64,000 nt of DNA from a virus. Positions 10,676 to 33,332 of the stretch are shown one piece after another. How positions within the stretch are numbered: position 1 is the first letter of the stretch; every line of letters begins with the position of its first letter. The DNA is taken from positions 62,001 through 126,000 of the IMG/VR virus record IMGVR_UViG_3300045971_000149. One strand, written 5' to 3'. The position numbers and the translations under genes were made by a program. The notes under the pieces are model-generated. The model was not told the origin of the DNA. It saw only the letters and a program-made list of their open reading frames with translations, and did no database searches.

Positions 10676-12037
10676 ATGAGCATACGGCATCAACACATTA
10701 TCCCGATTATCAACCAAATTAGCCCGACGTTCTGTTTAGCTAAATGGCACCATACCACAATATATCTACAGACTGGGGAAACACATAGCTGTTATCACCC
10801 ACGTCCACATAGCATCCCCATTGCAGAGTTAACTAACAATCCCGGCGCATTACATAATACGTTACAAAAGAAAGCTGAAAGAGCTGAAATGGTCGCGGGT
10901 AATAAACCACAAGGGTGTAACTATTGCTGGAATATAGAAGCAATGGGCGACGAGTATATAAGTGATCGTAAAGAGCGAAATGCAAGCATTTATACTCCTG
11001 AGCGATTTGAAGCAATACAGCAATCACCGATGGCCGACGTCAACCCGCAATATATTGAAATAAGTTTCGGTAATGAGTGTAACTTCAAGTGTGGGTATTG
11101 CCATCCAAAACATTCTAGTTCGTATCAAAAAGAGATAAAAGACTTTGGTCCTTATACTATGGTAAAGAATCATCGTAATGATATCAATTGGTTTACTACA
11201 TACGAAGAAGAGACTAACCCATATGTAGCTGCATGGTGGGCATGGTGGCCCGAAGTATCAAAGACATTAACTATACTTCGCATTACAGGGGGTGAGCCTT
11301 TACTGCAAGCATCTACTTGGCGTTTATTCGAAGAGTTGTCTGCAAACCCAATGCCCGACTTAGAACTTAATCTTAATAGCAACTTAGGAGTAAAGCCTGT
11401 ATTGGTGCAGCGCCTTATTGAAAAGGTAAACGCACTGGTAGCTGGTGGCAGGATAAAGAGCTTCAAGCTGTTTACTAGTCTCGATACCTGGGGTAAGAGG
11501 GCAGAGTATATCCGTACTGGCCTTGACCTAGATGTATGGGAACAAAACTTTAATGCATATATGACTCAAACTAATCTACCCATTACGTTTATGGTAACGT
11601 TTAACGCACTCACTGTGACTAGCTTTACTTCGCTATTAGAGAAGTTCTTAGAGTGGAGAACTCGTTACAACGGAACTGATCAAACAAAATGGCAACGTAT
11701 TAGATTTGATACTCCTTACCTTAAAGAGCCGTTGCAGTATGATATGAACATCTTGCCAAAGGAAGAGTTTATGCCCTACATGTATGCTACATTAAAATAC
11801 ATTGCTGATAACGTAGATGCTACAGATAGAACTAAGTTTAGTCAAGAAGAACATGATAAGTTTCTGCGAGTAGTCAAGTATATGGAAACAACTCATTACT
11901 CTGCAGAAAAACTAACAGAAGGACGATCTGACTTTTATAATTGGTTTACTGAATATGATCGTAGGCGTGATACTAACTTTGCAGAAACTTTCCCTGAGAT
12001 GATAGATTTTTATACAGTGTCGGCAAGGGAAATGTAA
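10676..12037 (+). CDS. Radical SAM protein, twitch-domain type (1 of 8)
   Basis: 453 residues. The SAM [4Fe-4S] motif CNFKCGYC is at C135/C139/C142, and ITGGEPLL (SAM-binding GGE) follows about 65 residues later. The N-terminal Cys region (THSCYHPRP..., GCNYCWNIEAMGD) matches the layout I know from 'twitch domain-containing radical SAM' phage proteins. Such enzymes cleave SAM to start radical chemistry; the substrate is unknown. First gene of a three-gene plus unit, joined to the next by TAATG. Confidence 0.85.
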   Translation: MSIRHQHIIPIINQISPTFCLAKWHHTTIYLQTGETHSCYHPRPHSIPIAELTNNPGALHNTLQKKAERAEMVAGNKPQGCNYCWNIEAMGDEYISDRKERNASIYTPERFEAIQQSPMADVNPQYIEISFGNECNFKCGYCHPKHSSSYQKEIKDFGPYTMVKNHRNDINWFTTYEEETNPYVAAWWAWWPEVSKTLTILRITGGEPLLQASTWRLFEELSANPMPDLELNLNSNLGVKPVLVQRLIEKVNALVAGGRIKSFKLFTSLDTWGKRAEYIRTGLDLDVWEQNFNAYMTQTNLPITFMVTFNALTVTSFTSLLEKFLEWRTRYNGTDQTKWQRIRFDTPYLKEPLQYDMNILPKEEFMPYMYATLKYIADNVDATDRTKFSQEEHDKFLRVVKYMETTHYSAEKLTEGRSDFYNWFTEYDRRRDTNFAETFPEMIDFYTVSAREM

Positions 12038-13332
12038 TGCATTTTGTATTTGAAAAATTATCACCCGAAGCATCTGAAAATTTTATTAACTGTCCAGATG
12101 TAAACAACTCGGGCATTCGCCGATTTACTCCTAGCCCGGTAATAAATGCAGTGATTCACAATAGTACCCGTAACATATCATATTCGTCCCAAGTGCCCGA
12201 CGAAAAATATATAATTGCATCGGGAGTTGCACATAGCCCCGGAGGATGGTGTGGCCCCGATAGCGAAAATAACGGATTTGATAAAAGGGATCCTAATAAG
12301 CAATCAGTGTTTGCCCATCTAAGTGAACAATATCTTAAAGATTTGCAAACAGGTAAAGCATGGTTACTTCTTGATCAATCACACGAAGGACATCATGTGT
12401 TGTGGCTGTGGGATTGGTTTCATAATAACTGTAATACATATAACATTAATCCTAGCCAAATTATATATGTCACTGGAAACCTAAACAGCAGTTCTGATTA
12501 TGCTGATTGGTTAACTTCGAAAAATTTATCAACCGGGATGTTAGTTATACCAGCAACACATTTTGAATCATTTATGTGCTGGATGGCATCTATTGATAAA
12601 ATTGTTAATGATCTATCAGCTAAATCTCACATAGAGTACAAAACTAACAACTTAGAAAAGATTAAGGTTTATAATGCATTACAAAAAAGACCCCGGGTAC
12701 ATCGAATTTGGTTATTTAAATCTCTAGTTGAAAACAATTTATTAGATAGTGGTATCAATAGTATGAATTCGTTTTCTTACCTGCATAGTTATTTTGAAGG
12801 TCGACATATGAATGTCAATGAATATAATACTATAGCAAACTTACTACCTATGTTATCCCCTACTGATAATAACTTAGCAAAATTTTCTAATACCGTAAGT
12901 GGACACTATATTACAGATTTTAATGAACAACATATGTTAAATTCATGGGTAAGTGTAATTAGTGAAGCATCATTTGGTGATTCAGAAAGAACTTGCTTTA
13001 TTAGCGAAAAAACATTTAAGACTATCGCATGCTATCACCCTTTTATTATATTCGGAAACAAAGGATCGTTAGCGCATCTTCGTAAGTTAGGTTATAAAAC
13101 GTTTAGTCCGTTTATCGATGAAACTTATGATTCTTTACCTACATGGGAACGAATTTCGGCAATCATTGTAGAGATTAACAAAATAAAAAATATGACATCT
13201 TATGAAAAATTAGAGTGGTATAAAGGAATGACAGAAATAGTAACACACAATTATAATGTGTTAAAGAATAATTCAGCATCTTATGCTAACTTGCACTATA
13301 CACAACTAGCATCTCACTGTAATATTAGTTAA
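12037..13332 (+). CDS. Possible glycosyltransferase-like protein
   Basis: 431 residues, no firm family. The C-terminal motif FISEKTFKTIACYHPFIIFG, then NKGSLAHLRKLGYKTF, resembles the donor-binding end of GT-B-type enzymes (a conserved Glu-Lys, then a hydrophobic strand and Gly). The N-terminal part contains SHEGHHVLWLWDWFHNN. Overlaps its neighbours by single bases (TAATG on both sides), so all three genes are coupled. Confidence 0.5.
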   Translation: MHFVFEKLSPEASENFINCPDVNNSGIRRFTPSPVINAVIHNSTRNISYSSQVPDEKYIIASGVAHSPGGWCGPDSENNGFDKRDPNKQSVFAHLSEQYLKDLQTGKAWLLLDQSHEGHHVLWLWDWFHNNCNTYNINPSQIIYVTGNLNSSSDYADWLTSKNLSTGMLVIPATHFESFMCWMASIDKIVNDLSAKSHIEYKTNNLEKIKVYNALQKRPRVHRIWLFKSLVENNLLDSGINSMNSFSYLHSYFEGRHMNVNEYNTIANLLPMLSPTDNNLAKFSNTVSGHYITDFNEQHMLNSWVSVISEASFGDSERTCFISEKTFKTIACYHPFIIFGNKGSLAHLRKLGYKTFSPFIDETYDSLPTWERISAIIVEINKIKNMTSYEKLEWYKGMTEIVTHNYNVLKNNSASYANLHYTQLASHCNIS

Positions 13333-13856
13333 TGAAAATACTATGTACCGGGAATCCTGTTGCAGGTATTGCTAAGGAGTTACAAAGTCTATATCCAGAT
13401 ACTTGCTTTATATCCAGGACAAACGGGTATGATTTATCAACGATTGAAGGCATAGATAAGTTTAAAGAGTTGTTACCTAATTACGATGTGTTTATTAATC
13501 ATTCTCAATTACTACCTGGTACTCAACAACTATTACTACAACATGCCTATGCAATATGGAATTCAGGGCATGTTATTAATATCGGTAGTGTCTTAGAGTT
13601 TAAACAGTGGGAATGGATAGAACCCGATGCTGCTGAAGACAAACGGCAATTGCGAGAGCGAAGTTTAGCCTTGGGAAATGAGTTATTCAAAACTACTCAT
13701 CTTATAATTGGTGGAATACGAGATAATGATATTTGTCGAATGCATCCAGTACATGTTGCTAAAGCAATAATGTGGATACTAGAAAATGAAGTTCATATCC
13801 CGATGCTTTACATTGATAAACTATCTAACGAAGTATTATCTAAAAGGAAATATTAG
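13332..13856 (+). CDS. SDR-like NAD(P)-binding protein
   Basis: 174 residues. MKILCTGNPVAGIAKELQ is a Rossmann-type dinucleotide loop; YDVFINHSQ and VINIGSV correspond to the NxA(G) and catalytic-Ser strands of short-chain dehydrogenases. It is shorter than a typical SDR (about 250 residues) and lacks a clear YxxxK, so catalysis is uncertain. Its end overlaps the convergent oxygenase gene by 17 bases. Confidence 0.6.
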   Translation: MKILCTGNPVAGIAKELQSLYPDTCFISRTNGYDLSTIEGIDKFKELLPNYDVFINHSQLLPGTQQLLLQHAYAIWNSGHVINIGSVLEFKQWEWIEPDAAEDKRQLRERSLALGNELFKTTHLIIGGIRDNDICRMHPVHVAKAIMWILENEVHIPMLYIDKLSNEVLSKRKY

Positions 13857-14436
13857 TTGCAAGTATCTCAGGTACTTTACTTACTGGTACTTTAAATATT
13901 AAATGTGCTCGATCAGTACTTCCGAGATTATTTGTACTATGCATTAACGATGTGTTTACTAAGTATATTTTTCCAGGAGTTAATACAAACCGTTCGTTAT
14001 CGAATATAAAATAACTTTGATCGTTTCCGGTAATAGGGATATGTATTTTAAAGTACTCTTCATCACAGTATATTTCTTTATCGATGTGAGCATCTATAAT
14101 AGATCCAGGATTATGCACTGTAATACTTGCCTGCCTAGCACATGGAAATGCGTTAATGCATTTTTCTGCAAATCCGAATAATAATTTAGTAGGAGTATCA
14201 AACTGGTTATTATCTGTAGGACTCGGCGGCACCCATTCTGGGGGTAAATGCAGTGGAGCACACGGAATTGTAATATCTGCTAATTTAGTGTGGATCGCCC
14301 AAGCATGCCCGGTAAATTGTGATTCGAAGTTTGGCACCCATTTTAAATCTTGATGCTGCTCTTTGATTATTGCATAGTAATCGAGTAACTCTTGAAAAGA
14401 AAATGTAACATTATCGAGTTCTTTTATTGTGAACAT
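13840..14436 (-). CDS. 2OG-Fe(II) oxygenase, Asp/Asn beta-hydroxylase-like (1 of 9)
   Basis: 198 residues. IDAHID supplies the HxD iron ligands, HSTNNLGSTDRAHLIF the distal His and the 2OG-binding Arg, with a double-stranded beta-helix pattern between (FKIHIPITGNDQSYFIFDNE). This is the signature of the aspartyl/asparaginyl beta-hydroxylase family (PF05118). The substrate may be protein or peptide. Confidence 0.85.
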   Translation of the reverse strand: MFTIKELDNVTFSFQELLDYYAIIKEQHQDLKWVPNFESQFTGHAWAIHTKLADITIPCAPLHLPPEWVPPSPTDNNQFDTPTKLLFGFAEKCINAFPCARQASITVHNPGSIIDAHIDKEIYCDEEYFKIHIPITGNDQSYFIFDNERFVLTPGKIYLVNTSLMHSTNNLGSTDRAHLIFKVPVSKVPEILATNISF

Positions 14437-15367: not shown

Positions 15368-16225
15368 TTATTTAAATGCAATATCAGGCAATACAAATGT
15401 TGCCTCTTCTAACTGATGTCCTGGCTCTCTATATTCAGTTAATATTAAATGAGCTCTTGGCTTATCCCAAGGATTTATAACAGTATGCAACATTTTTGGT
15501 ATCAACATCCATGCTTCACCGACAGGCATGTGCATCTTGTAGTACTTGTCTGTATCACCTTCATCTCTACATAAAAATTGCACATCTGGACGAGTAGTAA
15601 TAGGAACATGGTACCTGAGATATAAGTTTGCATCATTGTGTAAGTTATATCGTCTGCAGGGATTAACCCATAATATTCTAATTCCGCCGACCCATTTCCG
15701 TTGAAAGTTAGTTTCGTGCCATTCAATTAACGAATCAATTATTGTTTTTATATACAATCCATCTAATTCTTCTAAAAATTCTGTAGCATCTCCGGGGAAG
15801 TAACCTTGTTCAGTTTGCCAAGAGATGTGCCCTCTATTTTTTAAATATCTATCTTTTCCAGTAAGCCCAGGCTTATAGCTTAAATTTAAATCAAAGAAGA
15901 TAGGAGTAGTTGGATTGCCTAACGATTTCCATTTTTCAGAAAACCACTGGTTAGCTTCTACTTCCATGTCTTGATAACTGGCATATCCTAATCTGTGTGC
16001 TAGCTCAGTAAAGCTATTTAATAATTGCTCTTCGTCAATATCTACCATTATGGGATGATTGTCGGGAATTGAGTTAACTTCTTCTGCGGCATTTAAAATG
16101 TTATCAACATTGTACCCGTCGGGTATGTGATGCGGCCTAGTTAAGCTAGGCGCAGCATCTTTAATTGTATTATAATTTTTTGAATTGTTGTTGTAGTCTA
16201 ACGGTAAAAACTTAAAATGTTTCAT
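15368..16225 (-). CDS. 2OG-Fe(II) oxygenase, Asp/Asn beta-hydroxylase-like (2 of 9)
   Basis: 285 residues. YNLHNDANLYLRYHVPITT carries the first His and Asp (HxD), and LHTVINPWDKPRAHLILTEY the distal His and the Arg. The about 150-residue N-terminal extension is unassigned. AAGAGAA lies upstream of the ATG, and a late promoter core sits at 16244-16251. Confidence 0.85.
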   Translation of the reverse strand: MKHFKFLPLDYNNNSKNYNTIKDAAPSLTRPHHIPDGYNVDNILNAAEEVNSIPDNHPIMVDIDEEQLLNSFTELAHRLGYASYQDMEVEANQWFSEKWKSLGNPTTPIFFDLNLSYKPGLTGKDRYLKNRGHISWQTEQGYFPGDATEFLEELDGLYIKTIIDSLIEWHETNFQRKWVGGIRILWVNPCRRYNLHNDANLYLRYHVPITTRPDVQFLCRDEGDTDKYYKMHMPVGEAWMLIPKMLHTVINPWDKPRAHLILTEYREPGHQLEEATFVLPDIAFK

Positions 16226-16277: not shown

Positions 16278-16934
16278 ATGAACACTACAAAAGATTACTA
16301 TGTTTCTGATGCTAAGTTTTTAGAATTGGATATAGATGTGCCGTATGTTGAAATGTTGAAAGAAGCACAACAGCTAACACATAGATTTACTTCACACAGA
16401 TACGGCGAAGACCAACATAACGGTTGGAAAAGTCTGGCACTATACGGCATTGAAGAAGATAAACATGAGAATTGGAATATATACGGGTATACATCGGCAT
16501 TAGATGCTGCTAAAGATTTTAAGTGGACTGCGGCAGCATATGAATGCCCTACTATTATGAATTTCTTAATAAACAAGTTTCCATCTAAGAGATATGGCAG
16601 AGTTAGACTTATGCTATTAGAAGCCGGCGGGCATATTGCACCCCATAGTGATACCAGTCACCGCTTGTTGGAAAATATTAATATACCTCTTAGTAATCCT
16701 AAAGAATGTGTGTGGCACTGGGGTGATGGTACACACTTAGATATGAAACCCGGTACTCCTTATGCGATGAATATTAGTTATGTGCACAGTATAGAAAATA
16801 ACAGCACAGAAGACCGATTACATTTAATTGTGGCAAGGCACGACTCTACCCTAGCGTGGAAACAATTAATTGAACGTGCCGCTGCCAAAGCCGGTGTAAC
16901 CGGTCATTACATCACACACGAAATTGCAGTTTAA
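16278..16934 (+). CDS. 2OG-Fe(II) oxygenase, Asp/Asn beta-hydroxylase-like (3 of 9)
   Basis: 218 residues. GGHIAPHSDTSHRLLENINI has the HxD motif, and VHSIENNSTEDRLHLIV the distal His and Arg, in the canonical beta-hydroxylase order. Divergent from the 15368 gene and convergent with the 16931 gene (4-base overlap). No clear ribosome site. Confidence 0.85.
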   Translation: MNTTKDYYVSDAKFLELDIDVPYVEMLKEAQQLTHRFTSHRYGEDQHNGWKSLALYGIEEDKHENWNIYGYTSALDAAKDFKWTAAAYECPTIMNFLINKFPSKRYGRVRLMLLEAGGHIAPHSDTSHRLLENINIPLSNPKECVWHWGDGTHLDMKPGTPYAMNISYVHSIENNSTEDRLHLIVARHDSTLAWKQLIERAAAKAGVTGHYITHEIAV

Positions 16935-18355
16935 CCTAGTGGCCTAATACTAACCCAATCTTTAGAATGCCATGGCGCTTTTTTTAATTCGTTTATATCA
17001 GTAAGCTCGAAGTCTTTTGCAAATCCAGTAAGCGTTTGCCTTCGAGTTAGATATCCATCAGACGCTCGCGAAGTCATAATTATTGTAATATTAGGATCGA
17101 CGTTTTGTATCTTAGTAATTAGTTTATTCTCACAAGATATTCTATACTTCAAGCTCTGCGTAGCTACATACGGGCTGTGAGTAAACACATCGCTTAAATT
17201 TATCAGAGTTTTCTTACCAGGAACTATCCAGTCTAGATTATAACTTGCCATATAATCTATTAAAATATACTCAAATTTAAGCTGTTTAATCTTCGCCCAG
17301 GTTTCTTTCCAATTGGGATGCATAACAATAAATTTATCCCACTCGTCCCTTGTCCAATTAACATAAGCATTAATATCTTTGCTAAAATTATTTGGAGTAA
17401 TAGGACGATGCTTATCGTAAAAGTCTGAATAGTTTTCTCCGTCCCACTCTTCGACCATTGCCTTCATGAATTGCAATGTACTATGATTTATATCAGTGAA
17501 TATAACTTTAGTATCGGGGGTGGTAGTTATTCTATCTAAGTAGGTAATCCAAAATACACCAATTCCAACAGTAATATATTGTTCAACTGGCCCTTCAAAT
17601 GGAATACTTTCCTTAAACTGGTCGGAGTTCCACGAAGGAATAAAGTTATTACAAAAGAATTGATTATAGTATATATCGGATACTTGTCTTAAGAATACAT
17701 GATCGTATTCGTAGTATAGATATTTCTTACTTTCTCTAATGTCCGGGCCTAAGTCAACTACTACTTTGTTATTCTTTAACGCGGTGGAAATTAAATTCCA
17801 TCCATGCATTTTCATATTATAAGTCTTTTCAATTGTGCCTGGTTTAATCCAAGCTGCAACTTCGTGATCTCCGTATAAACATTCTTCGCTTCGGATAGGT
17901 TCAATTTGAGTATGTACAATCTCTTCCGGTTGACCTAAAGAAGGGCATCCTAGTTCCACATAATCTGCAAGACGAACTATGTAAAACTGATGATGTAATT
18001 CGTAATATGCATTTTGATAATACGACTTTTCATTTCTTTGCAGTACATGCCCCGCAACAAAGAATTCTTGTTGGCAAAGCTTTTCTATAGCAGGAAATAG
18101 TTTATCGTTTAAACCTAAAGACATCCCCATAGCAATAATTACTGCATGAGAATATCCTTCAGTGCTAACTTCCTTTAACAGTGCATCTTCATCTTTGCCG
18201 ATGAATATATCATATCCTTGCATGTTGAATCGGTGTATTAGAAAATCTGATATATTGATCGATACTTCTGTTGCCCAACTACTTTGATATAAGTCTCTGT
18301 TATCTACAATGCAGCAAACAATAGGATTCTTGTTTTGTTTAATAAAATTTACCAT
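16931..18355 (-). CDS. Unknown large protein, possible C-terminal methyltransferase fold
   Basis: 474 residues. Residues about 270-330 (ITVGIGVFWITYLDRI, then TKVIFTDINHSTLQFMKAMV) look like the glycine-loop, Asp-ended strand and helix of a SAM methyltransferase. Residues 10-130 look like a separate Rossmann-type domain. There is no catalytic signature, so the call is tentative. Overlaps the GNAT-like gene by 7 bases. Confidence 0.4.
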   Translation of the reverse strand: MVNFIKQNKNPIVCCIVDNRDLYQSSWATEVSINISDFLIHRFNMQGYDIFIGKDEDALLKEVSTEGYSHAVIIAMGMSLGLNDKLFPAIEKLCQQEFFVAGHVLQRNEKSYYQNAYYELHHQFYIVRLADYVELGCPSLGQPEEIVHTQIEPIRSEECLYGDHEVAAWIKPGTIEKTYNMKMHGWNLISTALKNNKVVVDLGPDIRESKKYLYYEYDHVFLRQVSDIYYNQFFCNNFIPSWNSDQFKESIPFEGPVEQYITVGIGVFWITYLDRITTTPDTKVIFTDINHSTLQFMKAMVEEWDGENYSDFYDKHRPITPNNFSKDINAYVNWTRDEWDKFIVMHPNWKETWAKIKQLKFEYILIDYMASYNLDWIVPGKKTLINLSDVFTHSPYVATQSLKYRISCENKLITKIQNVDPNITIIMTSRASDGYLTRRQTLTGFAKDFELTDINELKKAPWHSKDWVSIRPLG

Positions 18356-18915
18356 TTAGGGTATTGCTCCAAGTCTTTTAAAAATATTTCAGGAAAAAAT
18401 TGCCATACAGTTTGCATCGTACCTCTATACTGTACTTCTGCTGCAATTTTCATTATGCCTTTCTTTGCAAGTGCAGGACCAAACGTTCTATGCACTTTGC
18501 GTTGTGTTCCTACGGCATTTTCATTTGATGTAATATATAACGATGCGCCTTTAGGTGCCCATTCTATACATGCAGGTATTAAGAATTGCGCAGTAGGATT
18601 CTGATGGTGTGTTATAACACTAATAGTTCGTAATGCACTTCCGTACACTCCTTCTAACTTATCAGTGAATATGCATGTTCTTGCTGCAATACGATAACTG
18701 TTAGTCCCCATAACATCGTCAAAAGAATGTGCTGCCACACTACCTACAACAGTATCGTTAAAGTATAGCAACCACGTTTGCTTTTCTCGTTCGTTATTAA
18801 AACAGTCAACAAGCATATGTTTGCTAGAGTTATTATCAAAACCCCGTGCAGCAGCAGATGAATAAAACTCTGTAAGATCTAATTCGTTACTAAACGGTAC
18901 TACTTTAAATGACAT
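18349..18915 (-). CDS. GNAT-like acyltransferase
   Basis: 188 residues. The order of elements fits a GNAT fold: a helical N-terminus, WLLYFNDTVVGSVAAHSFDD (strand 2-4 with 'VG'), then RTCIFTDKLEGVYGSALRTI as a candidate acetyl-CoA site, and a C-terminal strand pair. The pyrophosphate loop R/QxxGxG/A is not well conserved, so this is a moderate call. Confidence 0.45.
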   Translation of the reverse strand: MSFKVVPFSNELDLTEFYSSAAARGFDNNSSKHMLVDCFNNEREKQTWLLYFNDTVVGSVAAHSFDDVMGTNSYRIAARTCIFTDKLEGVYGSALRTISVITHHQNPTAQFLIPACIEWAPKGASLYITSNENAVGTQRKVHRTFGPALAKKGIMKIAAEVQYRGTMQTVWQFFPEIFLKDLEQYPKW

Positions 18916-19603
18916 TCATTACCTTTTTAATAAAGTCTGCAGGATAATTTTTAGAGAAACTTTGCCAACATAGTTGTTCTAATGTTTCAAACTTCTGTGG
19001 TTCATCCCATACTATTCCTAACGATTCAATATGCTTACGCATAATATCTTGTCGTGTGCTATATATGTGACTCTCAACATCTTTAATACTAATCAATGTA
19101 TCTTTGTTATTGTACGTAAAGAAATAGTTTATGCTCTTTAGCTTACCGTTAACAATAAAGTAACTACTCGGATGCATACTGTATTTGAACAGACCGATGC
19201 TTTTATGTGCCTTTATAATGGTAAGCATTTGCTCTTGCCAATCCGGCAATACTTTATCGAAGTTTTCCGACAGGCACCCTGCCTGTTCCCAAAAGTCAGG
19301 ACCGTCTATACTTAGGTATAATTTTCGTTCATTATAGTCTACATCTAATATCGTCGGAACTAGGTTTGGAAACTGTGCAGCCATTTGGTATAGATACTTA
19401 ATTTCTCTATTCCATTTCTCGTGCATTAGTATAGGATCAACCACTTGGTTTTGTCCTTTGTGGTACTCTCCGTCGTTAAAGTACCATTGACAAAACACCT
19501 TTTGATCTGTTGATATAAGTGATGTGTATATCAAATTATTACGACAAGGCCCTGTCCCCGGGATATTGTTGTAATAGTAGTCGAATGAAGAAATATGTTG
19601 CAT
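18905..19603 (-). CDS. Degenerate kinase-fold protein (paralogue A)
   Basis: 232 residues. RKLYLSIDGPDFWEQ (hinge-like), WQEQMLTIIKAHKSIGLFKY, then HPSSYFIVNGKLKSINYFF parallel the catalytic loop and DFG region of APH/protein-kinase-like folds. The catalytic Asp and metal Asp are replaced (HPSSY, INYFF). It shares this architecture with the 24104-24784 product, so the two are paralogues. Likely a pseudokinase or binding module. Confidence 0.5.
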   Translation of the reverse strand: MQHISSFDYYYNNIPGTGPCRNNLIYTSLISTDQKVFCQWYFNDGEYHKGQNQVVDPILMHEKWNREIKYLYQMAAQFPNLVPTILDVDYNERKLYLSIDGPDFWEQAGCLSENFDKVLPDWQEQMLTIIKAHKSIGLFKYSMHPSSYFIVNGKLKSINYFFTYNNKDTLISIKDVESHIYSTRQDIMRKHIESLGIVWDEPQKFETLEQLCWQSFSKNYPADFIKKVMNVI

Positions 19604-24784: not shown

Positions 24785-25452
24785 ATAATTTCCAATCTAA
24801 ATTCTGTTGGTAGTATTTTGGTGAATGCATCTAATTCGGATTTGTTTATTTTAAATGACGCCCAGGTTGATGAAAACTTAAAATCAGCTAACTTGTTTTC
24901 TTTATTAATTTTGTTGAGCCACGGACTTATTATATCATCGAATAAAAATCGTAGAGTATCTTTGTCTAAAGTAGGTGCTGAAATTTTAACATTTATAGGG
25001 TCTATTAGATTAGCATTTACTAACAGTTTACGAATTACTAATTGCACTCTATCAGTAACACCGAAGTTAACTGCACTATGCCTCGGTCCGGTGTCTAATA
25101 CATACCAACATCCGTCAGGGTGTAATCTATGCATTACTCCTTCATCTAGATTTGCAAGGTAGGCATAGTGACTTGCTATGTTTAAATGATATCGATCATC
25201 AATATCAGCATGTGATTGATAGCAGGTAGCTGGCTTCAACGAAATAATCCGTGCCTCACCTATCTCTAACGGTAACGTTTGTAAAATACGGTCCCATGCT
25301 GTTCCTTGATATTCTGGTTTTATCTTCCAGGGATCGTAGAAAAATCTGCCAGTTGGTTGATTAATTGTCTCTCTAAATTGATCAATTGGTAAAAGGTCTT
25401 TTGCGGCTTGTAATAGCTCGTCAGGTACTGTATAATTTAATTTAACTAGCAT
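24781..25452 (-). CDS. 2OG-Fe(II) oxygenase, Asp/Asn beta-hydroxylase-like (9 of 9)
   Basis: 223 residues. CYQSHADIDDRYHLNI gives HxD, and DTGPRHSAVNFGVTDRVQLVIR the distal His and Arg, in classic beta-hydroxylase spacing. The C-terminal about 80 residues (ISAPTLDKDTLRFLFDDIIS) are extra. No Shine-Dalgarno; a late promoter core lies 8 nt upstream. Confidence 0.8.
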   Translation of the reverse strand: MLVKLNYTVPDELLQAAKDLLPIDQFRETINQPTGRFFYDPWKIKPEYQGTAWDRILQTLPLEIGEARIISLKPATCYQSHADIDDRYHLNIASHYAYLANLDEGVMHRLHPDGCWYVLDTGPRHSAVNFGVTDRVQLVIRKLLVNANLIDPINVKISAPTLDKDTLRFLFDDIISPWLNKINKENKLADFKFSSTWASFKINKSELDAFTKILPTEFRLEII

Positions 25453-25491: not shown

Positions 25492-25495
25492 AAAA

Positions 25496-26206
25496 ATGCA
25501 AACAACTGAAGTTCCGTTCGATCCGACCTGGAAAAACATAGCAATTAGCCTAAGTGGTGGTGCAGACAGTGCGTTACTAACTTACCTACTATGCTCAAAG
25601 ATTACACACCATACTAATATTCATATCATTAGTCATACTCGTATGTGGAAGACTCGCCCCTGGCAAGGTACTGATAGCTTACGTGTTTATAATTGGTTTG
25701 TTAACCAGTTTCCAAACATTCAATTTCATAGACATACAAATTTCATTTCTCCTGATTTAGAATATGGAAACGGTGCATTTGTTACTGACGAATATAAAAA
25801 AAGAGTAAGTGGCGACAATATTGAGATTCGAGCGTTTGCTGAATATGTATGCCACACTGAAGATTGTGCAGCATATTACAATGCAGTAACTCGCAACCCA
25901 AAAGGTATTGAGTTAGGTGGAATGAAAGAGCGAGATATTGATCCAACTGAGTCTAATAAGCATTTACAAGAGATGCAACATATGGGTAGATGGGCATTTC
26001 ATCCTTTTCGATTCGTAGATAAATCCTGGGTCCTTTCGCAATATGCGCAATTAGGTATTATGGAATTGTTTAATTTAACTCGTAGCTGCGAGGGTGAATT
26101 TGCAGATATAAACTATACTAATTACAAAGCAGGGCAATACGTTCCTTTATGTAACACCTGCTTCTGGTGTAAAGAACGGGCATGGGCAATTGAACAATCA
26201 ATCTAA
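25496..26206 (+). CDS. QueC-like PP-loop ATPase
   Basis: 236 residues. ISLSGGADSALLTYLL is the PP-loop of ATP-pyrophosphatases. RSCEG...VPLCNTCFWCKERAW reproduces the four-Cys zinc site of QueC (7-cyano-7-deazaguanine synthase). QueC makes preQ0 for tRNA or DNA modification, but no QueD, QueE or DpdA partner is visible in this window, so a different amide- or nitrile-forming role is possible. Starts leaderless-like and overlaps the next radical SAM gene by 17 bases. Confidence 0.7.
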   Translation: MQTTEVPFDPTWKNIAISLSGGADSALLTYLLCSKITHHTNIHIISHTRMWKTRPWQGTDSLRVYNWFVNQFPNIQFHRHTNFISPDLEYGNGAFVTDEYKKRVSGDNIEIRAFAEYVCHTEDCAAYYNAVTRNPKGIELGGMKERDIDPTESNKHLQEMQHMGRWAFHPFRFVDKSWVLSQYAQLGIMELFNLTRSCEGEFADINYTNYKAGQYVPLCNTCFWCKERAWAIEQSI

Positions 26207-27452
26207 CACATTTTGTATGCATCCCTTTACAGGGTTAGCAACACGAGAAGACGGAGCAGTTAAAGCATGTTGCCGCAGTCATCCTGTTGGCAATATTAAA
26301 TGCCATTCATTAGAAGAGATATGGAACAATCAAACAATGAAGCGTATTCGCAGGCAGGTGCTTAATAGCGAGCGCCCGCCAGAATGTGCACCATGTTTTA
26401 ATTTAGAAGATCAAGGAGTAGAGAGCTTACGGCAACGCCATATTAATGGTATCATTCCCGAAGCTCGTATTCACTTATACCCAACTGCATTATCTACTAT
26501 GCGAACTGATTATACAATGCCATTTGAAATTCCTACAATGGAAATTAAAATGAATAACCTGTGTAATCTAAAATGTCGTATGTGTAATCCAATGGATAGC
26601 ACTAGTTGGAATGACTGGAATGCAGTAGTTGATCATTATAAGAAAGAAGATAATTATCTTGTGCAACGAGTTATCGAGTTGAACTTAGTTAACAAGCCCT
26701 TTCTTGATAGTTTCGTTGATACAGACAACTGGTGGAATAGTTTTGAAAAGTTATTGCCGTTCTTTCGACGTGTTGAGTTTGCAGGAGGTGAACCATTAAT
26801 GGACCCTACTCATTATAAGATATTAGATAAGCTTGCGACATACGGGCATCAAATAGAAATCAAGTATGCAACTAATTTAACTATGCTAGGAAAAGGTAAA
26901 CGAACTATTTGGGAATACTGGCCTAAGTTTAAAAGTGTTGCAGTTAATGTAAGCATTGACGGAATAGGTCCTAGCTATGAATACATAAGAGGTAATGCTG
27001 ATTGGGACGAAGTAATTGCAAATATAAAAGACATACAATCTATTCCAAATATTAGCCGCATTGTAGGAGCAGTTGCAGTGCAGGTTAGTAATGTGTTAAT
27101 ATTAGATAAGATGATTGAATACTTCTTAGACGAGTTAGGAATTGTATTTTATACTAATATGGTCAACTACCCGCAAGCATTATCTATACAGGTATTACCG
27201 TTAGAATTAAAAGAGCTTGCTATTAAGCGATTGCAAGAAGCAAAGATAAAAGTGCCTACTTATAAGCATGTAATAAAAAATCCTATACTATTAGGTATCA
27301 CTAATACCCACATAGACGGTGTTATCAATTACTTAAATGCAAATGATAATTCTGTGATGTGGGCCGATTGTATAGATTTTAACAACAAACTAGATTCGAC
27401 ACGAAATCAAAGCTTTATCGATACTACTCCCGAGTTCAAACTGTATGTATAA
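26190..27452 (+). CDS. Radical SAM protein, twitch-domain type (3 of 8)
   Basis: 420 residues. FCMHPFTGLATREDGAVKAC with CC and ECAPCFNLE form the N-terminal Cys region; CNLKCRMC (C125/C129/C132) is the SAM cluster and FAGGEPLMDP the GGE motif. Layout matches the 10676 and 29317 products. Overlaps both neighbours, so it is co-translated with the QueC-like protein. Confidence 0.85.
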   Translation: MNNQSNTFCMHPFTGLATREDGAVKACCRSHPVGNIKCHSLEEIWNNQTMKRIRRQVLNSERPPECAPCFNLEDQGVESLRQRHINGIIPEARIHLYPTALSTMRTDYTMPFEIPTMEIKMNNLCNLKCRMCNPMDSTSWNDWNAVVDHYKKEDNYLVQRVIELNLVNKPFLDSFVDTDNWWNSFEKLLPFFRRVEFAGGEPLMDPTHYKILDKLATYGHQIEIKYATNLTMLGKGKRTIWEYWPKFKSVAVNVSIDGIGPSYEYIRGNADWDEVIANIKDIQSIPNISRIVGAVAVQVSNVLILDKMIEYFLDELGIVFYTNMVNYPQALSIQVLPLELKELAIKRLQEAKIKVPTYKHVIKNPILLGITNTHIDGVINYLNANDNSVMWADCIDFNNKLDSTRNQSFIDTTPEFKLYV

Positions 27453-28341
27453 AGTAGTAGGTAAATGGAAGCATCAAGACGCTATAAAAGTAGAATGGAA
27501 TCTTGGTAAACGATGTAATTATGATTGCAGTTATTGTCCGTCTAGTATTCACGATAATACAAGCCCGCATACTGATATAGGCATACTTAAATCTACTATC
27601 GATAAGCTTGCAGCAATAGGCAAACCTGTGCGATTAAGTTTTACAGGAGGCGAGCCTTGCGTTCACCCTAAGTTTGATAAGCTATTGCACTATGCAAGAG
27701 ATCACGGCATCGAGTGGGTTAGTGTAACAACTAATGGCACTCGCCCATATGAGTTCTATTCTACATTGCCGGTTGACCAGTATGTGTTCAGTATGCATCT
27801 AGAATACAACTGGCAGCGAGTGTTCGAAACAGGCAATAGAATAATAAGCATGACTGGGATTAATGTTATTATGCAAATAATGGCACATCACGATTACGTT
27901 ACACAGGCTCGCATGCTAAAGGAACGATGTGATGCTGAAGGGATTCCTAACACAGTGAGACGCATACGTTGGACAGAAGGCGATCATGATTTGTTTGACG
28001 ATATGCGCTATCATCCAGCTGATTTAAAATGGGTAAAAGAATCCGGTGCTAGTGTAAAACCAAATGTTATCATAGACGATAAACAAGAGATACACGCCAA
28101 TGATGTTATTAAACTTCACCTCAACGGATATAAAGGGTGGAGTTGCAATGCAGGTATCGAAAGCCTAATGATTAACTGGGACGGTGAGGTGCATAGAGCA
28201 ACATGTAGAGTAGGCGGCAGTCTTGGAAACATTTATAACGATACATTTACAATTCCTACCGCACCTGTTATATGTGATAGGAACTGGTGTACTTGTGCAG
28301 CCGATATACCATTAACAAAACATACAATTATCAAGCATTAA
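27445..28341 (+). CDS. Radical SAM protein (4 of 8)
   Basis: 298 residues. CNYDCSYC at C24/C28/C31 and SFTGGEPCVHPKFDKLL. The C-terminus has Cys at GWSCNAGIESLMINWDGE, ATCRVGG and WCTCAAD, a SPASM/twitch-like auxiliary cluster region. This 'GW.CN.GIESL.I...G' region recurs in the 28331 and 32343 products, which form a subfamily. Last plus gene of its unit, convergent with 28331. Confidence 0.85.
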   Translation: MYKVVGKWKHQDAIKVEWNLGKRCNYDCSYCPSSIHDNTSPHTDIGILKSTIDKLAAIGKPVRLSFTGGEPCVHPKFDKLLHYARDHGIEWVSVTTNGTRPYEFYSTLPVDQYVFSMHLEYNWQRVFETGNRIISMTGINVIMQIMAHHDYVTQARMLKERCDAEGIPNTVRRIRWTEGDHDLFDDMRYHPADLKWVKESGASVKPNVIIDDKQEIHANDVIKLHLNGYKGWSCNAGIESLMINWDGEVHRATCRVGGSLGNIYNDTFTIPTAPVICDRNWCTCAADIPLTKHTIIKH

Positions 28342-29320
28342 AAATTTTAATAGACTTTGAAATGCGAGTTTCAGGAGCACATATACATGTCTTATGCTCG
28401 CATACTGCGGACTTTAACTCTGGATTAAATTTACTTATAAAATCAGCATCGTAAATGTTATATTTGGCATCTAATCCGTAAAGCCGATTGCTGCACGATC
28501 CCTCCATTATTCCTTTGGGATTTATATAAAGGCTTTCTTTTCCAATATTACAATTCCACCCAAAAAAGTGATTCCAATCGTTTAATGCTACTTGGTTATG
28601 ACGAACCGTTTGAGTTGTTCCGTCATTAAACTTTATCTTACTTCTGTTAATATGAAAATGATTTCGCATCTTAAATGCATACCATAGATTTGGATATCGT
28701 TTAATTGAATTAGATAAAAATAATATCTGCTCTGGAGAATATAGATTTGCTCCGTCTGCTTCTTCGATTTTCTGCGTTCCTATGTACCACTTATACTTAC
28801 TATTCTTAAAATACTCAATCATGTCGATACATTTATTCCATTCATACGGATCCATGCATACAGAAACATCAACATATACTCCGTTCCTATAAAGAAGATC
28901 TGCAACCTCGGTAAAATGTTGTAAGTTGATTTCTTTATAATGTGCAGATAAGTTTACTTTATCGAAAATGTAATTTTTTTCCTGCCACCACCGTAATGTA
29001 CGTGATCCATTAGATTGGATAGACGATCTAAACTCGTGTTGCTCTTTTAATCTGCTTAGAAACTGATCAACTTCGGGCCATAGTGTAGGTTCTCCACCTA
29101 ATAATTGTAATTCAATTTGTGTTTTGCCGTTGCGTTTATAATAATCAAATAAGTGACTAAAATTATCAACTACTTGACTAACATTAGCTGGCCATTTATA
29201 CTTTCCGGAATTTGATCCCGGAAAACAATATCTACATTTAAAATTGCATATGTCTGTTACACTATAACTAATCTTAATAAAATTACTAGGTTGATTTGAT
29301 GTAATAGCAATAGGTATCAT
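28331..29320 (-). CDS. Radical SAM protein (5 of 8)
   Basis: 329 residues. CNFKCRYC at C25/C29/C32, LLGGEPTLWP, then GWNCNIGKESLYINPKGIME and CEHKTCICAPET at the C-terminus (auxiliary-cluster cysteines). Same subfamily as the 27445 and 32343 products. Its end overlaps the convergent 27445 gene by 11 bases; its start overlaps the upstream gene by 4. Confidence 0.85.
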   Translation of the reverse strand: MIPIAITSNQPSNFIKISYSVTDICNFKCRYCFPGSNSGKYKWPANVSQVVDNFSHLFDYYKRNGKTQIELQLLGGEPTLWPEVDQFLSRLKEQHEFRSSIQSNGSRTLRWWQEKNYIFDKVNLSAHYKEINLQHFTEVADLLYRNGVYVDVSVCMDPYEWNKCIDMIEYFKNSKYKWYIGTQKIEEADGANLYSPEQILFLSNSIKRYPNLWYAFKMRNHFHINRSKIKFNDGTTQTVRHNQVALNDWNHFFGWNCNIGKESLYINPKGIMEGSCSNRLYGLDAKYNIYDADFISKFNPELKSAVCEHKTCICAPETRISKSIKIFNA

Positions 29321-30615
29321 AAAATAGCTAATTCCGGAAAAACTTCTCTAAAGTTCGAATTGCGTTGTTGATCAGTAACTGTTAAGTACTCGAGCATAAT
29401 AGGTAACTTACTACTCCAATCTTCTTGATTCATATATTGGATTAACCCTTGCCATCGTGATTTTCCATACGGATTATTTTGAAACTCGATGTCATGTGAA
29501 TAGGTGTCACATAATTTAGTTACCTGCTGCTTAACTGCTTCTTTTAATTCTTTAGGTAATACTCTAACATTTAGATAGTCCGGCAAGTACACTAAATGTG
29601 TTCCTATAAGGCCCGCACCATACGGCGGCAGATTGATCTTTTTAAAATTTTGCTGTTGCTTCCATTTAACTAAATCTGCCACATATAGTACATTTAACAC
29701 CTGCACTGCACACGCAATATTTACAATAATGTTATTTGGGGTATCGTCTAGTCTATGTAAATTGGCAGTAACATCTTTCCACTTGCTAGGATATCTAATA
29801 TAATCATTTTTCTCCCCGACAGCATCAATGCTAAAGTTAAATTTAACTTGCTTAAAGTGTTTCCACAGTTCAAATAACTTCTCCGGGAGTTCTAATCCGT
29901 TCGAGTTATACCGTATTACACAATTCTTAGCAGCACCGATCTCTACCATAAACTCGAGTATTGTATAATGTTCAGGGATTAACAACGGCTCTCCTCCAGC
30001 AAAGTACAACTCTTGAATAAAGTGTGCCTGCTTACGCATACTTTCCAAGAAACTACCTTTCTTATACCAGTTGTAATTAACTTTACTATCCCAGCGTTGA
30101 TCATGCGATAGTTCAAATGTTTTGTATTTTGGATATTGTACCTTCCATTCTTTAATCCACGCGCTGCTATCATGTGGACTACACATAATACATTTAAGCT
30201 GGCATATATTTCCTAACCTTAAGTCAAAATATGGAATGCTAACAGGAAGCTCGCCGTTGGCTTGAGTTTGTGCCACAATACTATTGATATCTACACGATC
30301 CTTCCATACTACAGATTCCCATTGTCGTTTACTAACAATCCCATTTGATTCTTCATTAAAGCATTTTGCACAACTAGCCGGAATCTCGTTATTGAGCATT
30401 TGTAATCTAGTGTTTTTCATAAAAGAGGAATTCCACACCTCCTCTAATGATTGATGCTGTAGATTCATAACAAAATTGTCACTTTTAACTAAACCAATTT
30501 GCTTTTCGTTATCAAGCCCTGCACCGCTTGCGTTCGACGTGCAACACAGTCGTACATCACCGTTAGGGCGAGTTGCTAAATGTATCCAAGGTAACGGGCA
30601 AAAAGTACTAGACAT
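29317..30615 (-). CDS. Radical SAM protein, twitch-domain type (6 of 8)
   Basis: 432 residues. FCPLPWIHLATRPNGDVRLC with CC at C24-C25 and SCAKCFNEE; CQLKCIMC at C138/C142/C145; YFAGGEPLLIPEHY. Third member of the twitch-type group (with 10676 and 26190), and the N-terminal half is clearly alignable with the 26190 product. Overlaps the upstream gene by 8 bases. Confidence 0.85.
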   Translation of the reverse strand: MSSTFCPLPWIHLATRPNGDVRLCCTSNASGAGLDNEKQIGLVKSDNFVMNLQHQSLEEVWNSSFMKNTRLQMLNNEIPASCAKCFNEESNGIVSKRQWESVVWKDRVDINSIVAQTQANGELPVSIPYFDLRLGNICQLKCIMCSPHDSSAWIKEWKVQYPKYKTFELSHDQRWDSKVNYNWYKKGSFLESMRKQAHFIQELYFAGGEPLLIPEHYTILEFMVEIGAAKNCVIRYNSNGLELPEKLFELWKHFKQVKFNFSIDAVGEKNDYIRYPSKWKDVTANLHRLDDTPNNIIVNIACAVQVLNVLYVADLVKWKQQQNFKKINLPPYGAGLIGTHLVYLPDYLNVRVLPKELKEAVKQQVTKLCDTYSHDIEFQNNPYGKSRWQGLIQYMNQEDWSSKLPIMLEYLTVTDQQRNSNFREVFPELAIL

Positions 30616-31663
30616 TAGCTACTTGATCTCCCGGCTTTGCGAAATTCCCGTCGCCGCAACTTCTTGCACAGACAATCAACTTGTTAGTTGTCCAATACTC
30701 AGTCCATATTGTTTGGTAAGCATCTGAATCTATAACATCTTTAATAGATCGATTTATTACATTTGTATCACCTAACTTTGCCATCAACTCAGCATGTTGT
30801 TCTAGCATATCGATTCGAACTTTAAATGCTCCGTCTAAATCAACATGAGTATACGGAACACTAGCTATCCAGCAACATGGATACAAATTTTTGTAAGCAT
30901 CGATATACACTTCTTTATACTGTTGCACCTTGCATGATATAACAGAGTTTTTTACTATTTCTTTATAAGAATCTATTACTTTTTTATCTATGAATTTCAA
31001 CGGGGTATCTGTTGCAGGTTCGATGTAGTGCATCACTTTATTATTTCGATCTACAATTTTTACTGTTGGGTCTAAGATAAATCTAGAACTATTTTTAACT
31101 GTAAACTTTTTGAATCCTGACTTAATTGAAATACTTCGTGCCTCTTCAACCTGGTGTTCGTTATGTTTGAATCTAAGGAACACCCACTCAGCAGTCCCGC
31201 CCGAATTAATAAATGTACGCGCATTTTCTAATACTGTTTCAAATTTAGTTCCTACCCTATATAGGTGGTGGGTATCGGCTAACCCGTCAAGTGCAAACAC
31301 TACATTATGGTTATCCGGTAACGATTTAGCAAGTTGGCGCCACCAAACAGAATTTCGCGCACCGCCATTGGTATGAATAGTAATAGCTACATTAGGAGAA
31401 ATGCTACGTGAGTATTCGCACATCTCGATAAGACTATTGTTCATCATTGGATCACCAAAATTGCTACAAAAATAGTAATTTGTGATTTGCGACAGCACTT
31501 CGGAAGTCATTACAGATTTAAAATCGTCAAGTGACCAATTAGTTATTTTAATAAGCGGATTATCTAGGCCGCCGTCGATGTTCCTGTTACACATAGGACA
31601 GTTGGCTTGGCAGTTGTTTGTTATCTCTAGATGTATTTGTCTTAGTTCTGAAAAATGAAACAT
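30608..31663 (-). CDS. Radical SAM protein, SPASM-like (7 of 8)
   Basis: 351 residues. CQANCPMC at C18/C22/C25 and NFGDPMMNN in place of the usual GGEP. C-terminal SCKVQQYKEVYIDAYKNLYP with CC is a SPASM-like cluster region. The 'FGDPMMN' variant resembles radical SAM enzymes acting on peptides or sugars that I know by pattern only. Starts one base after the stop of the 31-residue peptide gene. Confidence 0.8.
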   Translation of the reverse strand: MFHFSELRQIHLEITNNCQANCPMCNRNIDGGLDNPLIKITNWSLDDFKSVMTSEVLSQITNYYFCSNFGDPMMNNSLIEMCEYSRSISPNVAITIHTNGGARNSVWWRQLAKSLPDNHNVVFALDGLADTHHLYRVGTKFETVLENARTFINSGGTAEWVFLRFKHNEHQVEEARSISIKSGFKKFTVKNSSRFILDPTVKIVDRNNKVMHYIEPATDTPLKFIDKKVIDSYKEIVKNSVISCKVQQYKEVYIDAYKNLYPCCWIASVPYTHVDLDGAFKVRIDMLEQHAELMAKLGDTNVINRSIKDVIDSDAYQTIWTEYWTTNKLIVCARSCGDGNFAKPGDQVANV

Positions 31664-31664
31664 A

Positions 31665-31760
31665 CTATTTGTAAATGAACGGGTCTCGTTTGCGTAGTTC
31701 TTTTAGTCTTTTCTTAAACAAGAAATAATTTTTAATTCTTAGTATTAATCTTTTTATCAT
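31665..31760 (-). CDS. 31-residue basic peptide inside the radical SAM operon
   Basis: The ATG at 31760 overlaps the TGA of the methyltransferase gene (ATGA); stop TAG at 31667-31665, one base before the radical SAM start. The peptide begins MIKRLILRIKNYFLFKKRLK and ends in RDPFIYK: 13 Lys/Arg among 31 residues, an amphipathic helix. The tight coupling makes it credible. It may be a structural or regulatory peptide, or a substrate of a neighbouring enzyme; nothing proves a role. Confidence 0.6.
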   Translation of the reverse strand: MIKRLILRIKNYFLFKKRLKELRKRDPFIYK

Positions 31761-32353
31761 TTTCTTCTTCCTATGATCATGTAACGGGTATACATTGGTA
31801 GATCGAGTTCGCCTGCCCATAAAACTGTGTCAATGTTACACTGTTCTTTAAAGTTATCTAAACTGGTTGCTGTGCGAATATGCTCTGGTATGTTATAGTT
31901 ATTGCTTTGTAGCACTACTACACTAGTATACGGCAATGCCGAACACCACCGATTATAGTCTGCCTGTGTAATATGTTCGCAACTTGTGTTAATTATAATG
32001 TCAGCGTTACTTTTAATGTCACACATATTTGCTGTTACTGCGGTGAATCTACCTTGCATTTCTTCGCCCTTATTCATCATGGTAGCAATAGGTGCACAAG
32101 ACGGATCTATATCGATGCTGCGAATATTTCCTACCGGAGTATGACTTTGAAATAACATGCTAGCAAGTATGCCAACCCACCCTCCGTGGATATCAACAGA
32201 GGCCTGTTGTAATACAAAAGGCCGTAGGTTACTAATTAACCATTCCTTACTGGAAATTTGTCCTTTCCAAAATGCATCTAGTGTACGAATAGGATTATCG
32301 CTTTGCCTAATAGCCTGCATCCAGTAATGGATATGGTCCGAATCAAGTTGCAT
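31757..32353 (-). CDS. Class I SAM-dependent methyltransferase-like protein
   Basis: 198 residues. ASVDIHGGWVGILASMLFQS (glycine loop), IRSIDIDPSCAPIA (acidic end of strand 2), ADIIINTSCEHITQADY (strand 4 with a catalytic-site-like region). Short for the family. Overlaps the upstream radical SAM gene by 11 bases and the downstream peptide gene by 4, so all are one transcript. Substrate unknown. Confidence 0.65.
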   Translation of the reverse strand: MQLDSDHIHYWMQAIRQSDNPIRTLDAFWKGQISSKEWLISNLRPFVLQQASVDIHGGWVGILASMLFQSHTPVGNIRSIDIDPSCAPIATMMNKGEEMQGRFTAVTANMCDIKSNADIIINTSCEHITQADYNRWCSALPYTSVVVLQSNNYNIPEHIRTATSLDNFKEQCNIDTVLWAGELDLPMYTRYMIIGRRK

Positions 32354-33332
32354 TTATTGGTATCACTTTTCTTTTTGGTATTTTACTATCAGCTGAACTA
32401 ACGCATGTGGGAGTGATACATTTTGCAGGAGCATTAAAAATAGTAAACCCGTTATCTAACGTTCCTAACATAGTATCGTGACAACTGTAACCACGTTTCA
32501 CTTCGTTAGACTTAATTATAACACTTTGATGACCACTATTGCAAGTCCAATCTGTAAACTTATTAAACCCGAATGAATTGAATCGTTCAGCTTGGTCAAG
32601 CAAGTATTCTGTATTATGGTTATCATATAACGCTATCTGATATATAGCTGCTCCGTTACTCCGCTGTGGGAATCCGGTTTGCATGAGTTTAATCATATCA
32701 TCAGTGTATCCGCTTACTATGTTAGAAGCAGTTAAGTCGCTTTGCGGTTTAAGTGTAACATTAATACCTTGCCTATTAAAATTAACTAATCGATCATACA
32801 GCTCGTAAAACTTTCCGGGTACCATAACTTGATTTACAGTAACATGTACATTATCGTCTATTAACTGTAACAGTTTGTCACTGAACTGATCTTCTTTTGA
32901 AAACTCGTCGTGATAGCTGGCAGTTATGCTTCTACGTTGTAACATACTTGTAGAATCTGCCCAATTTCTCCACCAATTCTTACTAGGTGATAAGTTAGTA
33001 GTCATATGAATACTTTGATACGGTGTTTGAATACCATCATCAAGGTGCTTCGTTAACTCTAGAAGATGTTTATAAGCAGTAGGTTCACCACCACTAAAAC
33101 TCCAATGAAATTGGTTAAAACCATTAGATCTAGCTTGCGACTTAATTTCGTCTATTGTGTGTTTATATAGTTCTAACGGCTGGTAATCTAGAGTATCTGA
33201 TCTAGCATACGGCCAACAATAACTGCATTTATAATTACAAAATCGACCTAAAATCCAACTCACAGAAAACAATTGAGAATCGAGCATAGTCCGTTGACCA
33301 AAAACTTTTATAGTTTTCCATGGGATGTTCAT
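32343..33332 (-). CDS. Radical SAM protein (8 of 8)
   Basis: 329 residues. CNYKCSYC at C32/C36/C39, SFSGGEPTAYKHLLEL, and DWTCNSGHQSVIIKSNEVKR with CHD and CITPTC at the C-terminus. First gene of the minus-strand unit 33332 to 28331. No Shine-Dalgarno; a late promoter core lies 5 nt upstream. Confidence 0.85.
   Translation of the reverse strand: MNIPWKTIKVFGQRTMLDSQLFSVSWILGRFCNYKCSYCWPYARSDTLDYQPLELYKHTIDEIKSQARSNGFNQFHWSFSGGEPTAYKHLLELTKHLDDGIQTPYQSIHMTTNLSPSKNWWRNWADSTSMLQRRSITASYHDEFSKEDQFSDKLLQLIDDNVHVTVNQVMVPGKFYELYDRLVNFNRQGINVTLKPQSDLTASNIVSGYTDDMIKLMQTGFPQRSNGAAIYQIALYDNHNTEYLLDQAERFNSFGFNKFTDWTCNSGHQSVIIKSNEVKRGYSCHDTMLGTLDNGFTIFNAPAKCITPTCVSSADSKIPKRKVIPINAT

Follow-up and report, generated by a model that had tools for sequence, protein, structure and literature searches.

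A conserved radical SAM gene cassette in an uncultured T4-like phage, with a core shared by Bdellovibrionota

We analysed a 64,000-nucleotide stretch of DNA (the window), comprising positions 62001-126000 of the 157,925-bp record IMGVR_UViG_3300045971_000149, an uncultured T4-like phage whose terminase is T4-like and shares 53% identity with that of the large Pseudomonas phage PA5oct. Positions are window coordinates throughout, and gene labels abbreviate the start position (R106 starts at 10676, R323 at 32343). An island of radical S-adenosylmethionine (rSAM) genes between 10676 and 33332 consists of parts of two modules, A and B, not of one pathway gene set. Module B is a cassette with a recurring gene order in other uncultured phages, module A combines one rSAM gene with glycosyltransferases, and a core of the cassette recurs on Bdellovibrionota chromosomes. 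Our preferred explanation, to which we give a probability of about 0.38, is that the island produces a surface glycan of an unusual sugar or amino-sugar-like type. More broadly, at somewhat less than even odds, phages and Bdellovibrionota would share an undescribed rSAM biosynthetic system (R323-R306-R293, GT343/349 and MT317), expanded in uncultured phages to a cassette of roughly a dozen enzymes making a chemically new surface modification.

Eight intact genes and a recurring cassette

All eight rSAM open-reading frames (ORFs) of the island are intact and contain the CxxxCxxC triad, accompanied by GGEP or GAEP in seven and by FGDP in 30608. The Pfam Radical_SAM family (PF04055) matched each of them, six above the gathering cut-off, with 10676 and 30608 slightly below it (27 vs 29.5 bits), and a scan of the whole record returned eight matches, every one inside the island. 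A second assembly record of 9,353 bp corresponds to window positions 25073-34425 at 99.99% identity, which rules out a mis-join in the core. Within runs of genes on one strand, neighbours overlap by a few bases (26190/26206, 27445/27452, 29317/29320, 30608/30615 and 32343/32353). The initial annotation, made from the sequence alone, had described both the eight intact genes and the overlaps, and both stand.

To describe module B we compared 36 loci, each 20 kb or longer, seeded solely on homologues of 27445 (34 distinct at 95% identity), to which the counts in this section refer. Its rSAM genes are R261, R274, R293, R306 and R323, usually R283 and sometimes R196. The seed gene R274 (27445..28341, +), a core rSAM gene with C-terminal auxiliary-cluster cysteines, adjoins the core N-terminal-twitch enzyme R261 (26190..27452, +; 36/36, median 68% identity) 33 times in 36 loci. 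R293, a second N-twitch enzyme (29317..30615, -; 36/36), and the FGDP variant R306 (30608..31663, -; 35/36) belong to the core that is common to bacteria, whilst R323 (32343..33332, -; 31/36) is the most conserved member of the cassette. R283 (28331..29320, -; 28/36, median 38%), with C-terminal auxiliary-cluster cysteines, is variable, and the zinc-ribbon enzyme R196 (19642..20694, +; PF23545 and PF04055, HMPTM/Tes/TrsS-like) is optional (9/36). A pattern scan for relatives of R196 in viral contigs found none, its sensitivity being limited, because BLAST on selected contigs recovered homologues of 35-61% identity that the scan had missed.

The companions of these genes are a methyltransferase, a QueC-like ATPase, 2-oxoglutarate (2OG) oxygenases, a pseudokinase-like protein and an acetyltransferase-like protein. 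The core Rossmann methyltransferase-like protein MT317 (31757..32353, -; 33/36, median 63%) has no Pfam match, and OX247 (24781..25452, -), an Asp/Asn-hydroxylase-like 2OG oxygenase with a weak, below cut-off match to PF05118, is present in all 36 loci. X206 (20684..21499, +; 28/36, median 63% identity), also core, is a probable 2OG oxygenase by its HxD...H...R residues, read by eye; a PDB profile search with it gave nothing useful. Four smaller oxygenase-like proteins are also present: the OX214 family (21499..21990, +; 17/36), 21992..22486 (+; no Pfam match) and 22477..23001 (+; 12/36), each assigned to 2OG oxygenases by eye, and the OX235 family (23593..24141, -; 30/36). K189 (18905..19603, -; 23/36) is pseudokinase-like, its profile matching the C-lobe of TTK kinase (E=1e-4); the family is conserved, yet the HRD and DFG aspartates are replaced in every member. 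A kinase-like protein, K241 (24104..24784, -; 26/36), is by eye a relative of K189. NAT183 (18349..18915, -), acetyltransferase-like by reading and without a Pfam match, belongs to a family found in 16 compared contigs including the window.

Clustering of ORFs from 27 contigs and the window gave a recurring order, with R323-MT317-R306-R293-R283 facing R274-R261-Q254, followed by OX247, further oxygenases, K189, NAT183 and X206, and the extra enzymes between these genes differ among phages. The relatives' cassettes include an amidinotransferase, matching HsvA, the inosamine-phosphate amidinotransferase StrB1 and AGAT, as well as NAD-dependent epimerase-like and aminotransferase-like proteins, as read from their sequences. 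Fusions of an rSAM enzyme to a glycosyltransferase or another cassette domain were absent among the loci examined. A-type Fe-S carrier proteins are encoded by two relatives (two in G003, one in G005), a plausible supply for rSAM enzymes. Homologues of R323 occur in more than 590 viral contigs, as do those of R106, the best sharing ~70-76% identity (~71-75% for R106), and a search of 50,697 phage records detected no match to either protein. Whole records bearing the cassette mostly have 7-15 rSAM genes each; the large ones, of 191, 217, 331 and 353 kb, have 10, 12, 15 and 11, the last two (331,570 bp and 353,233 bp) being very large uncultured phages.

The initial annotation had read the island as one pathway, to be doubted if its genes never co-occurred elsewhere. 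The gene set recurs in 34 distinct loci, and co-occurrence across the 36 loci is the opposite of that outcome. Most of the genes do form one co-inherited, order-keeping unit; the reading fails for 10676, which belongs to the separate module A (a 10676-like gene is present in only 3 of 36 module-B loci, at 32% identity), and for 19642, an occasional extra.

The QueC-like PP-loop ATPase Q254 (25496..26206, +; 22/36) has invariant SGGADS and C..CxxCxxC motifs and a weak match to phrog_1550, and together with the 2OG enzymes it raises the idea that the cassette hypermodifies phage DNA or nucleotides, of the deazaguanine or hydroxymethyl-pyrimidine type. Some relatives also encode QueD and FolE. 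However, the record, which is possibly incomplete, holds no gene for QueD, FolE or the thymidylate-synthase/dCMP-hydroxymethylase family, Q254 has only short motifs in common with a phage QueC, none of the eight rSAM proteins is QueE by NCBIfam cut-offs, and one relative (G004) has QueD and FolE yet no Q254 in its island; we give this explanation little chance. The queuosine/preQ0 (7-deazaguanine) pathway in particular was rejected, its partners QueD, FolE and QueE not being found in a record that may be incomplete. PDB profile searches with Q254 and MT317 gave nothing useful.

A minimal bacterial counterpart under selection

R323 was found in 24 contigs of bacterial metagenome-assembled genomes (MAGs), mostly Bdellovibrionota, at 44-49% identity (one partial match at 55%). 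Where the flank was sufficient, R293 (mostly 43-49%) and R306 (29-35%) nearly always stood beside it, often with homologues of GT343/GT349 (35-46%) and sometimes MT317; homologues of K189 and X206 were not detected at these loci. The smallest version is GT343-R293-R323-R306 amid ordinary chromosomal genes (locus L262). The Bdellovibrionota that carry the core are relatives of predatory bacteria. NF033640 genes number 8-25 in 15 of the 16 bacterial genomes searched, and some of them form clusters of 30 kb; one Bdellovibrionota MAG has about a dozen N-twitch rSAM genes in 30 kb (G046:C1:745513-774880, loci L274-L275). These clusters share families f21, f26, f27, f47, f52 and Q254-like proteins with the phage cassettes, from which they differ in being chromosomal and in having other paralogue sets. 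Four marine MAG contigs (L257, L269, L270 and L273) appear phage-like and may be mis-binned.

Two further genes of the window have relatives in such islands. A Rossmann-type protein (13332..13856, +) shares 32-37% identity with Bdellovibrionota-island and related proteins, neighbours of bacterial R323, and a two-domain relative of family f26 (16931..18355, -) shares 27-44% with phage- and bacterial-island proteins.

In a tree of R323, whose deep root is uncertain owing to a long outgroup branch, a single clade (100/100) unites 21 phage sequences and groups with those of Bdellovibrionota, and one phage-contig sequence (G019) lies outside the main phage clade. Between the closest pairs, nonsynonymous differences (pN 0.05-0.31) are far below synonymous ones (pS 0.57-0.94); judged by these sequence comparisons the module genes are under strong purifying selection, as expected of working enzymes. 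Of the rSAM genes, R283 and R306 show the fastest divergence, possibly because their substrate changes.

The bacterial distribution bears on whether the cassette merely supports host metabolism or supplies a cofactor, with no link to the surface. Fe-S carrier genes in relatives would suit such a role, and annotations often class rSAM genes among auxiliary metabolic genes. The core is present in just 16 of 241 Bdellovibrionota genomes, however, and is thus not housekeeping, and none of the eight rSAM proteins scored above the cut-off for any NCBIfam equivalog of a cofactor pathway, so that we regard this role as very improbable.

Module A, glycosyltransferases and tail fibres

Module A was compared across 23 R106-seeded loci (15 distinct). 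R106 (10676..12037, +), an N-terminal-twitch rSAM of NF033640, is found with the same five genes in 23 of 23: GT343 (34330..34998, -), its paralogue by sequence comparison GT349 (34991..35905, -), GT364 (36425..37246, -) and GT372 (37243..38079, -), both sugar-transferase-like by eye, and g380 (38076..38426, -), a small conserved protein. A further associate, g12037 (12037..13332, +), possibly a glycosyltransferase, accompanies R106 in 21 of the 23 loci and has no family match. In other phages module A forms a separate operon that immediately follows PHROG tail-fibre genes and shares their orientation, the order on one strand in relatives being tail-fibre genes, DYNAxxxK/GYGQ proteins, g380, GT372, GT364, m8, GT349, GT343 and R106. 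In the window it is split by module B, which separates R106 on one side from the glycosyltransferases on the other. Fibre-type genes at ~47-56 kb and a virion-like gene at 38474 place the island beside tail-fibre genes here too.

GT343 is predicted, from a structure model with a pLDDT of 92, to be a glycosyltransferase of the GT-A fold; Foldseek gave a probability of 1.0 at a TM score of only ~0.36-0.45, with fucosyl-, chondroitin-, SunS- and GalNAc-transferases as the best PDB matches, and D59 is invariant within a (D/N)(G/A)D motif (DxD-type). The possibility that 34330/34991 encode base-J-type glucosyltransferases was not confirmed, the PDB profile search being empty and Foldseek pointing to GT-A only. 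A GT343-like domain (TM 0.92) also occurs in two uncultured-phage proteins in BFVD, A0A6J5LK21 and A0A6J5L5L5, of 804 and 1076 amino acids, and the other parts of these fusion proteins may give a clue to function.

The probable virion protein at 38474..39334 (-), which in relatives stands between the fibre genes and module A, belongs to a family (also L120:3851-5736) with an N-terminal DYNAxxxK and a Gly-rich GYG(Q) motif and with no match in PHROG or isolate phages. These proteins are a candidate substrate.

Enzyme classes and proposed function

BLASTP among the eight rSAM proteins grouped 10676 with 26190 and 29317, and 27445 with 28331 and 32343, leaving 19642 and 30608 each separate. NF033640 (N_Twi_rSAM), with a cut-off of 170 bits along the whole protein, gave 317, 340 and 412 bits to the first three and excluded the other five, and PF23545 identified a zinc ribbon in 19642, so that the twitch-type trio, the GW-C-x-G trio, the zinc-ribbon type and the FGDP variant of the initial annotation were recovered. 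In seven of the eight, additional cysteines occupy the position of an auxiliary-cluster site, N-terminal to the rSAM domain in 10676, 26190 and 29317 and C-terminal in 27445, 28331, 32343 and 30608, which from their placement probably bind an auxiliary cluster. Viperin/pVip, and with it antiviral or nucleotide-analogue synthesis, was rejected: the best NF038283 score was 53 bits against a cut-off of 180 and came from the rSAM core only.

The nearest PDB fold to the predicted structure of R323 (pLDDT 85) is MoaA, then EpeE, anSME, PqqE, ChlB and TigE. With the solved twitch/SPASM enzymes MoaA, EpeE, anSME and PqqE the model appears to share the rSAM core and a C-terminal auxiliary-cluster region, but at only TM 0.43-0.53 and 11-18% identity, so a substrate cannot be carried over.

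The matches after MoaA, and an N-twitch profile match to SkfB, are what one would expect if the cassette modified a virion or host protein directly by radical chemistry, in the manner of ribosomally synthesised and post-translationally modified peptides (RiPPs), with the oxygenases, acetyltransferase and methyltransferase finishing side chains and the glycosyltransferases glycosylating the same protein. The Asp/Asn-hydroxylase type of the oxygenases and the probable virion proteins preceding module A agree with this. However, no conserved small ORF was found in the module-B gaps of 20 contigs (19 with the near-identical G004/G007 counted once), the largest such gap in the window being 93 nt, and a RiPP with a local precursor was rejected on this ground. 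A leader-binding domain (a RiPP recognition element, RRE, or PqqD-like) was not among the Pfam/NCBIfam matches of the scanned proteins, although divergent RREs would escape. GT343 moreover accompanies the core on bacterial chromosomes without fibres, and the kind of amidinotransferase matched in relatives acts on small amines; direct protein modification is, in our estimation, rather unlikely.

We favour the surface glycan. Module B would assemble a heavily modified building block of an unusual sugar or amino-sugar-like type. Each of its auxiliary-cluster rSAM enzymes would perform one radical change (a dehydrogenation, epimerisation or bond formation), hydroxylation, methylation and acylation or amidation would follow, and extra enzymes would be exchanged between phages. 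Module A, with its glycosyltransferases and R106, transcribed with the tail fibres in relatives, would then put the sugars on fibre or adhesin proteins, and a phage-specified glycan on the fibre or the infected-cell surface could alter adsorption or superinfection. We infer a common product of both modules; homologues of GT343/GT349 stand beside R293-R323-R306 on Bdellovibrionota chromosomes, which links the chemistry of the two modules, and a role at the fibre or cell surface is likely given that both modules lie together near fibre-type genes in the phage. The twitch rSAM enzymes BtrN and SpeY, which oxidise aminocyclitols or sugars, are weakly among the matches, the amidinotransferase, epimerase-like and aminotransferase-like proteins of relatives are in keeping with a sugar-derived substrate, and analogous islands of isolates (Mosig and CP220) adjoin tail fibres.

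Several observations weigh against this glycan. No module-B gene has an assignable substrate, the best structural matches of R323 include the peptide-modifying EpeE, anSME and PqqE besides MoaA, and no amidinotransferase was recognised in the window. Fibre linkage is established solely for module A: recognisable fibre genes were present in 0 of 36 module-B loci (a search of low sensitivity, as fibres diverge fast) and modules A and B are ~68 kb apart in G003, which leaves module B without a tie to fibres.

The same natural-product-like mix of aminotransferase-like, amidinotransferase, acetyltransferase-like, oxygenase and many rSAM genes could instead make a diffusible small molecule, such as an antibiotic, a signal or a siderophore-like compound, in the infected cell. 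No non-ribosomal peptide synthetase, polyketide synthase or export gene was recognised among the scanned window genes, though, and the glycosyltransferase pair is the most constant module-A partner and recurs in bacteria, making a diffusible product distinctly improbable.

Other genes of the window

Three further 2OG oxygenases of Asp/Asn-hydroxylase type (PF05118) lie at 13840..14436 (-), 15368..16225 (-) and 16278..16934 (+; 61 bits), and a sulfotransferase-like protein (PF03567) at 23003..23596 (+). Immediately upstream of 10676 is a cell-wall hydrolase (9682-10404, +; PF07486). A homologue of translation initiation factor IF-1 (45429-45650, +; PF01176, 74 bits) belongs to a family (f14) present in 12 compared contigs, where it often flanks module B, and just after the fibre-type genes lies a DNA/RNA non-specific endonuclease with an apparent signal peptide (55505-56263, +; PF01223, 153 bits).

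Significance and comparison with known phage systems

Islands rich in rSAM genes have been noted in phages since 2010 and have so far been treated as loose collections of auxiliary genes. The cassette is now defined by its core, its gene order and a periphery open to exchange. It is conserved in dozens of phages, uncultured and without a close sequenced isolate, whose records reach 353 kb, and it has a minimal chromosomal form in bacteria. That so many Fe-S radical enzymes are under strong purifying selection implies a product both costly and important. For learning what purpose radical chemistry serves in phages, practical starting points are GT343-R293-R323-R306, the minimal operon of bacteria, and two remotely related isolates, Mosig and CP220.

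The number of rSAM genes is not in itself exceptional, contrary to the initial annotation, which took phages with more than two or three to be few. The Campylobacter phages CP220 and CPt10 (Firehammervirus) have 11 and 12, arranged as exchangeable modules that each include an amidinotransferase (PMC2853527), and the 183 kb T4-like environmental genome TARA_ERS488813_N000010 has 12 (PMC5332604), its likeness to our phage resting on T4-like type and rSAM number in the published description. CP220 is likewise T4-like, with an rSAM cluster adjoining nucleotide-sugar transferase genes near a tail-fibre gene, but homology is merely remote (R306-like 23-27%, R283-like 32%), and none of the compared CP220 genes has R261, R274, R293, R323, MT317 or Q254 as its best match. 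Neither the orthologous rSAM genes nor the amidinotransferase that characterise a CP220-type module were recognised in the window.

Pelagimyophages carry rSAM cassettes in a hypervariable host-recognition cluster (PMC7029224), and the window shares this arrangement, a hypervariable island next to tail-fibre genes. In Pelagibacter phage Mosig EXVC030M the island lies between the tail fibres and VrlC, and holds Asp/Asn hydroxylases, an acetyltransferase and a methyltransferase with 31% identity to MT317, together with three MoaA-annotated genes, two of them remotely R306-like (31%) and R283-like (28%); the window fibre at 49561 shares 47% identity with a Mosig fibre over 263 amino acids. Mosig differs in its other accessory enzymes and has no match to R261, R293, R323 or Q254. 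Phage rSAM islands as a kind are known, though uncharacterised; the literature searched describes neither the defined cassette nor its division into two modules nor the bacterial core, and there is a considerable chance that the cassette represents a new system.

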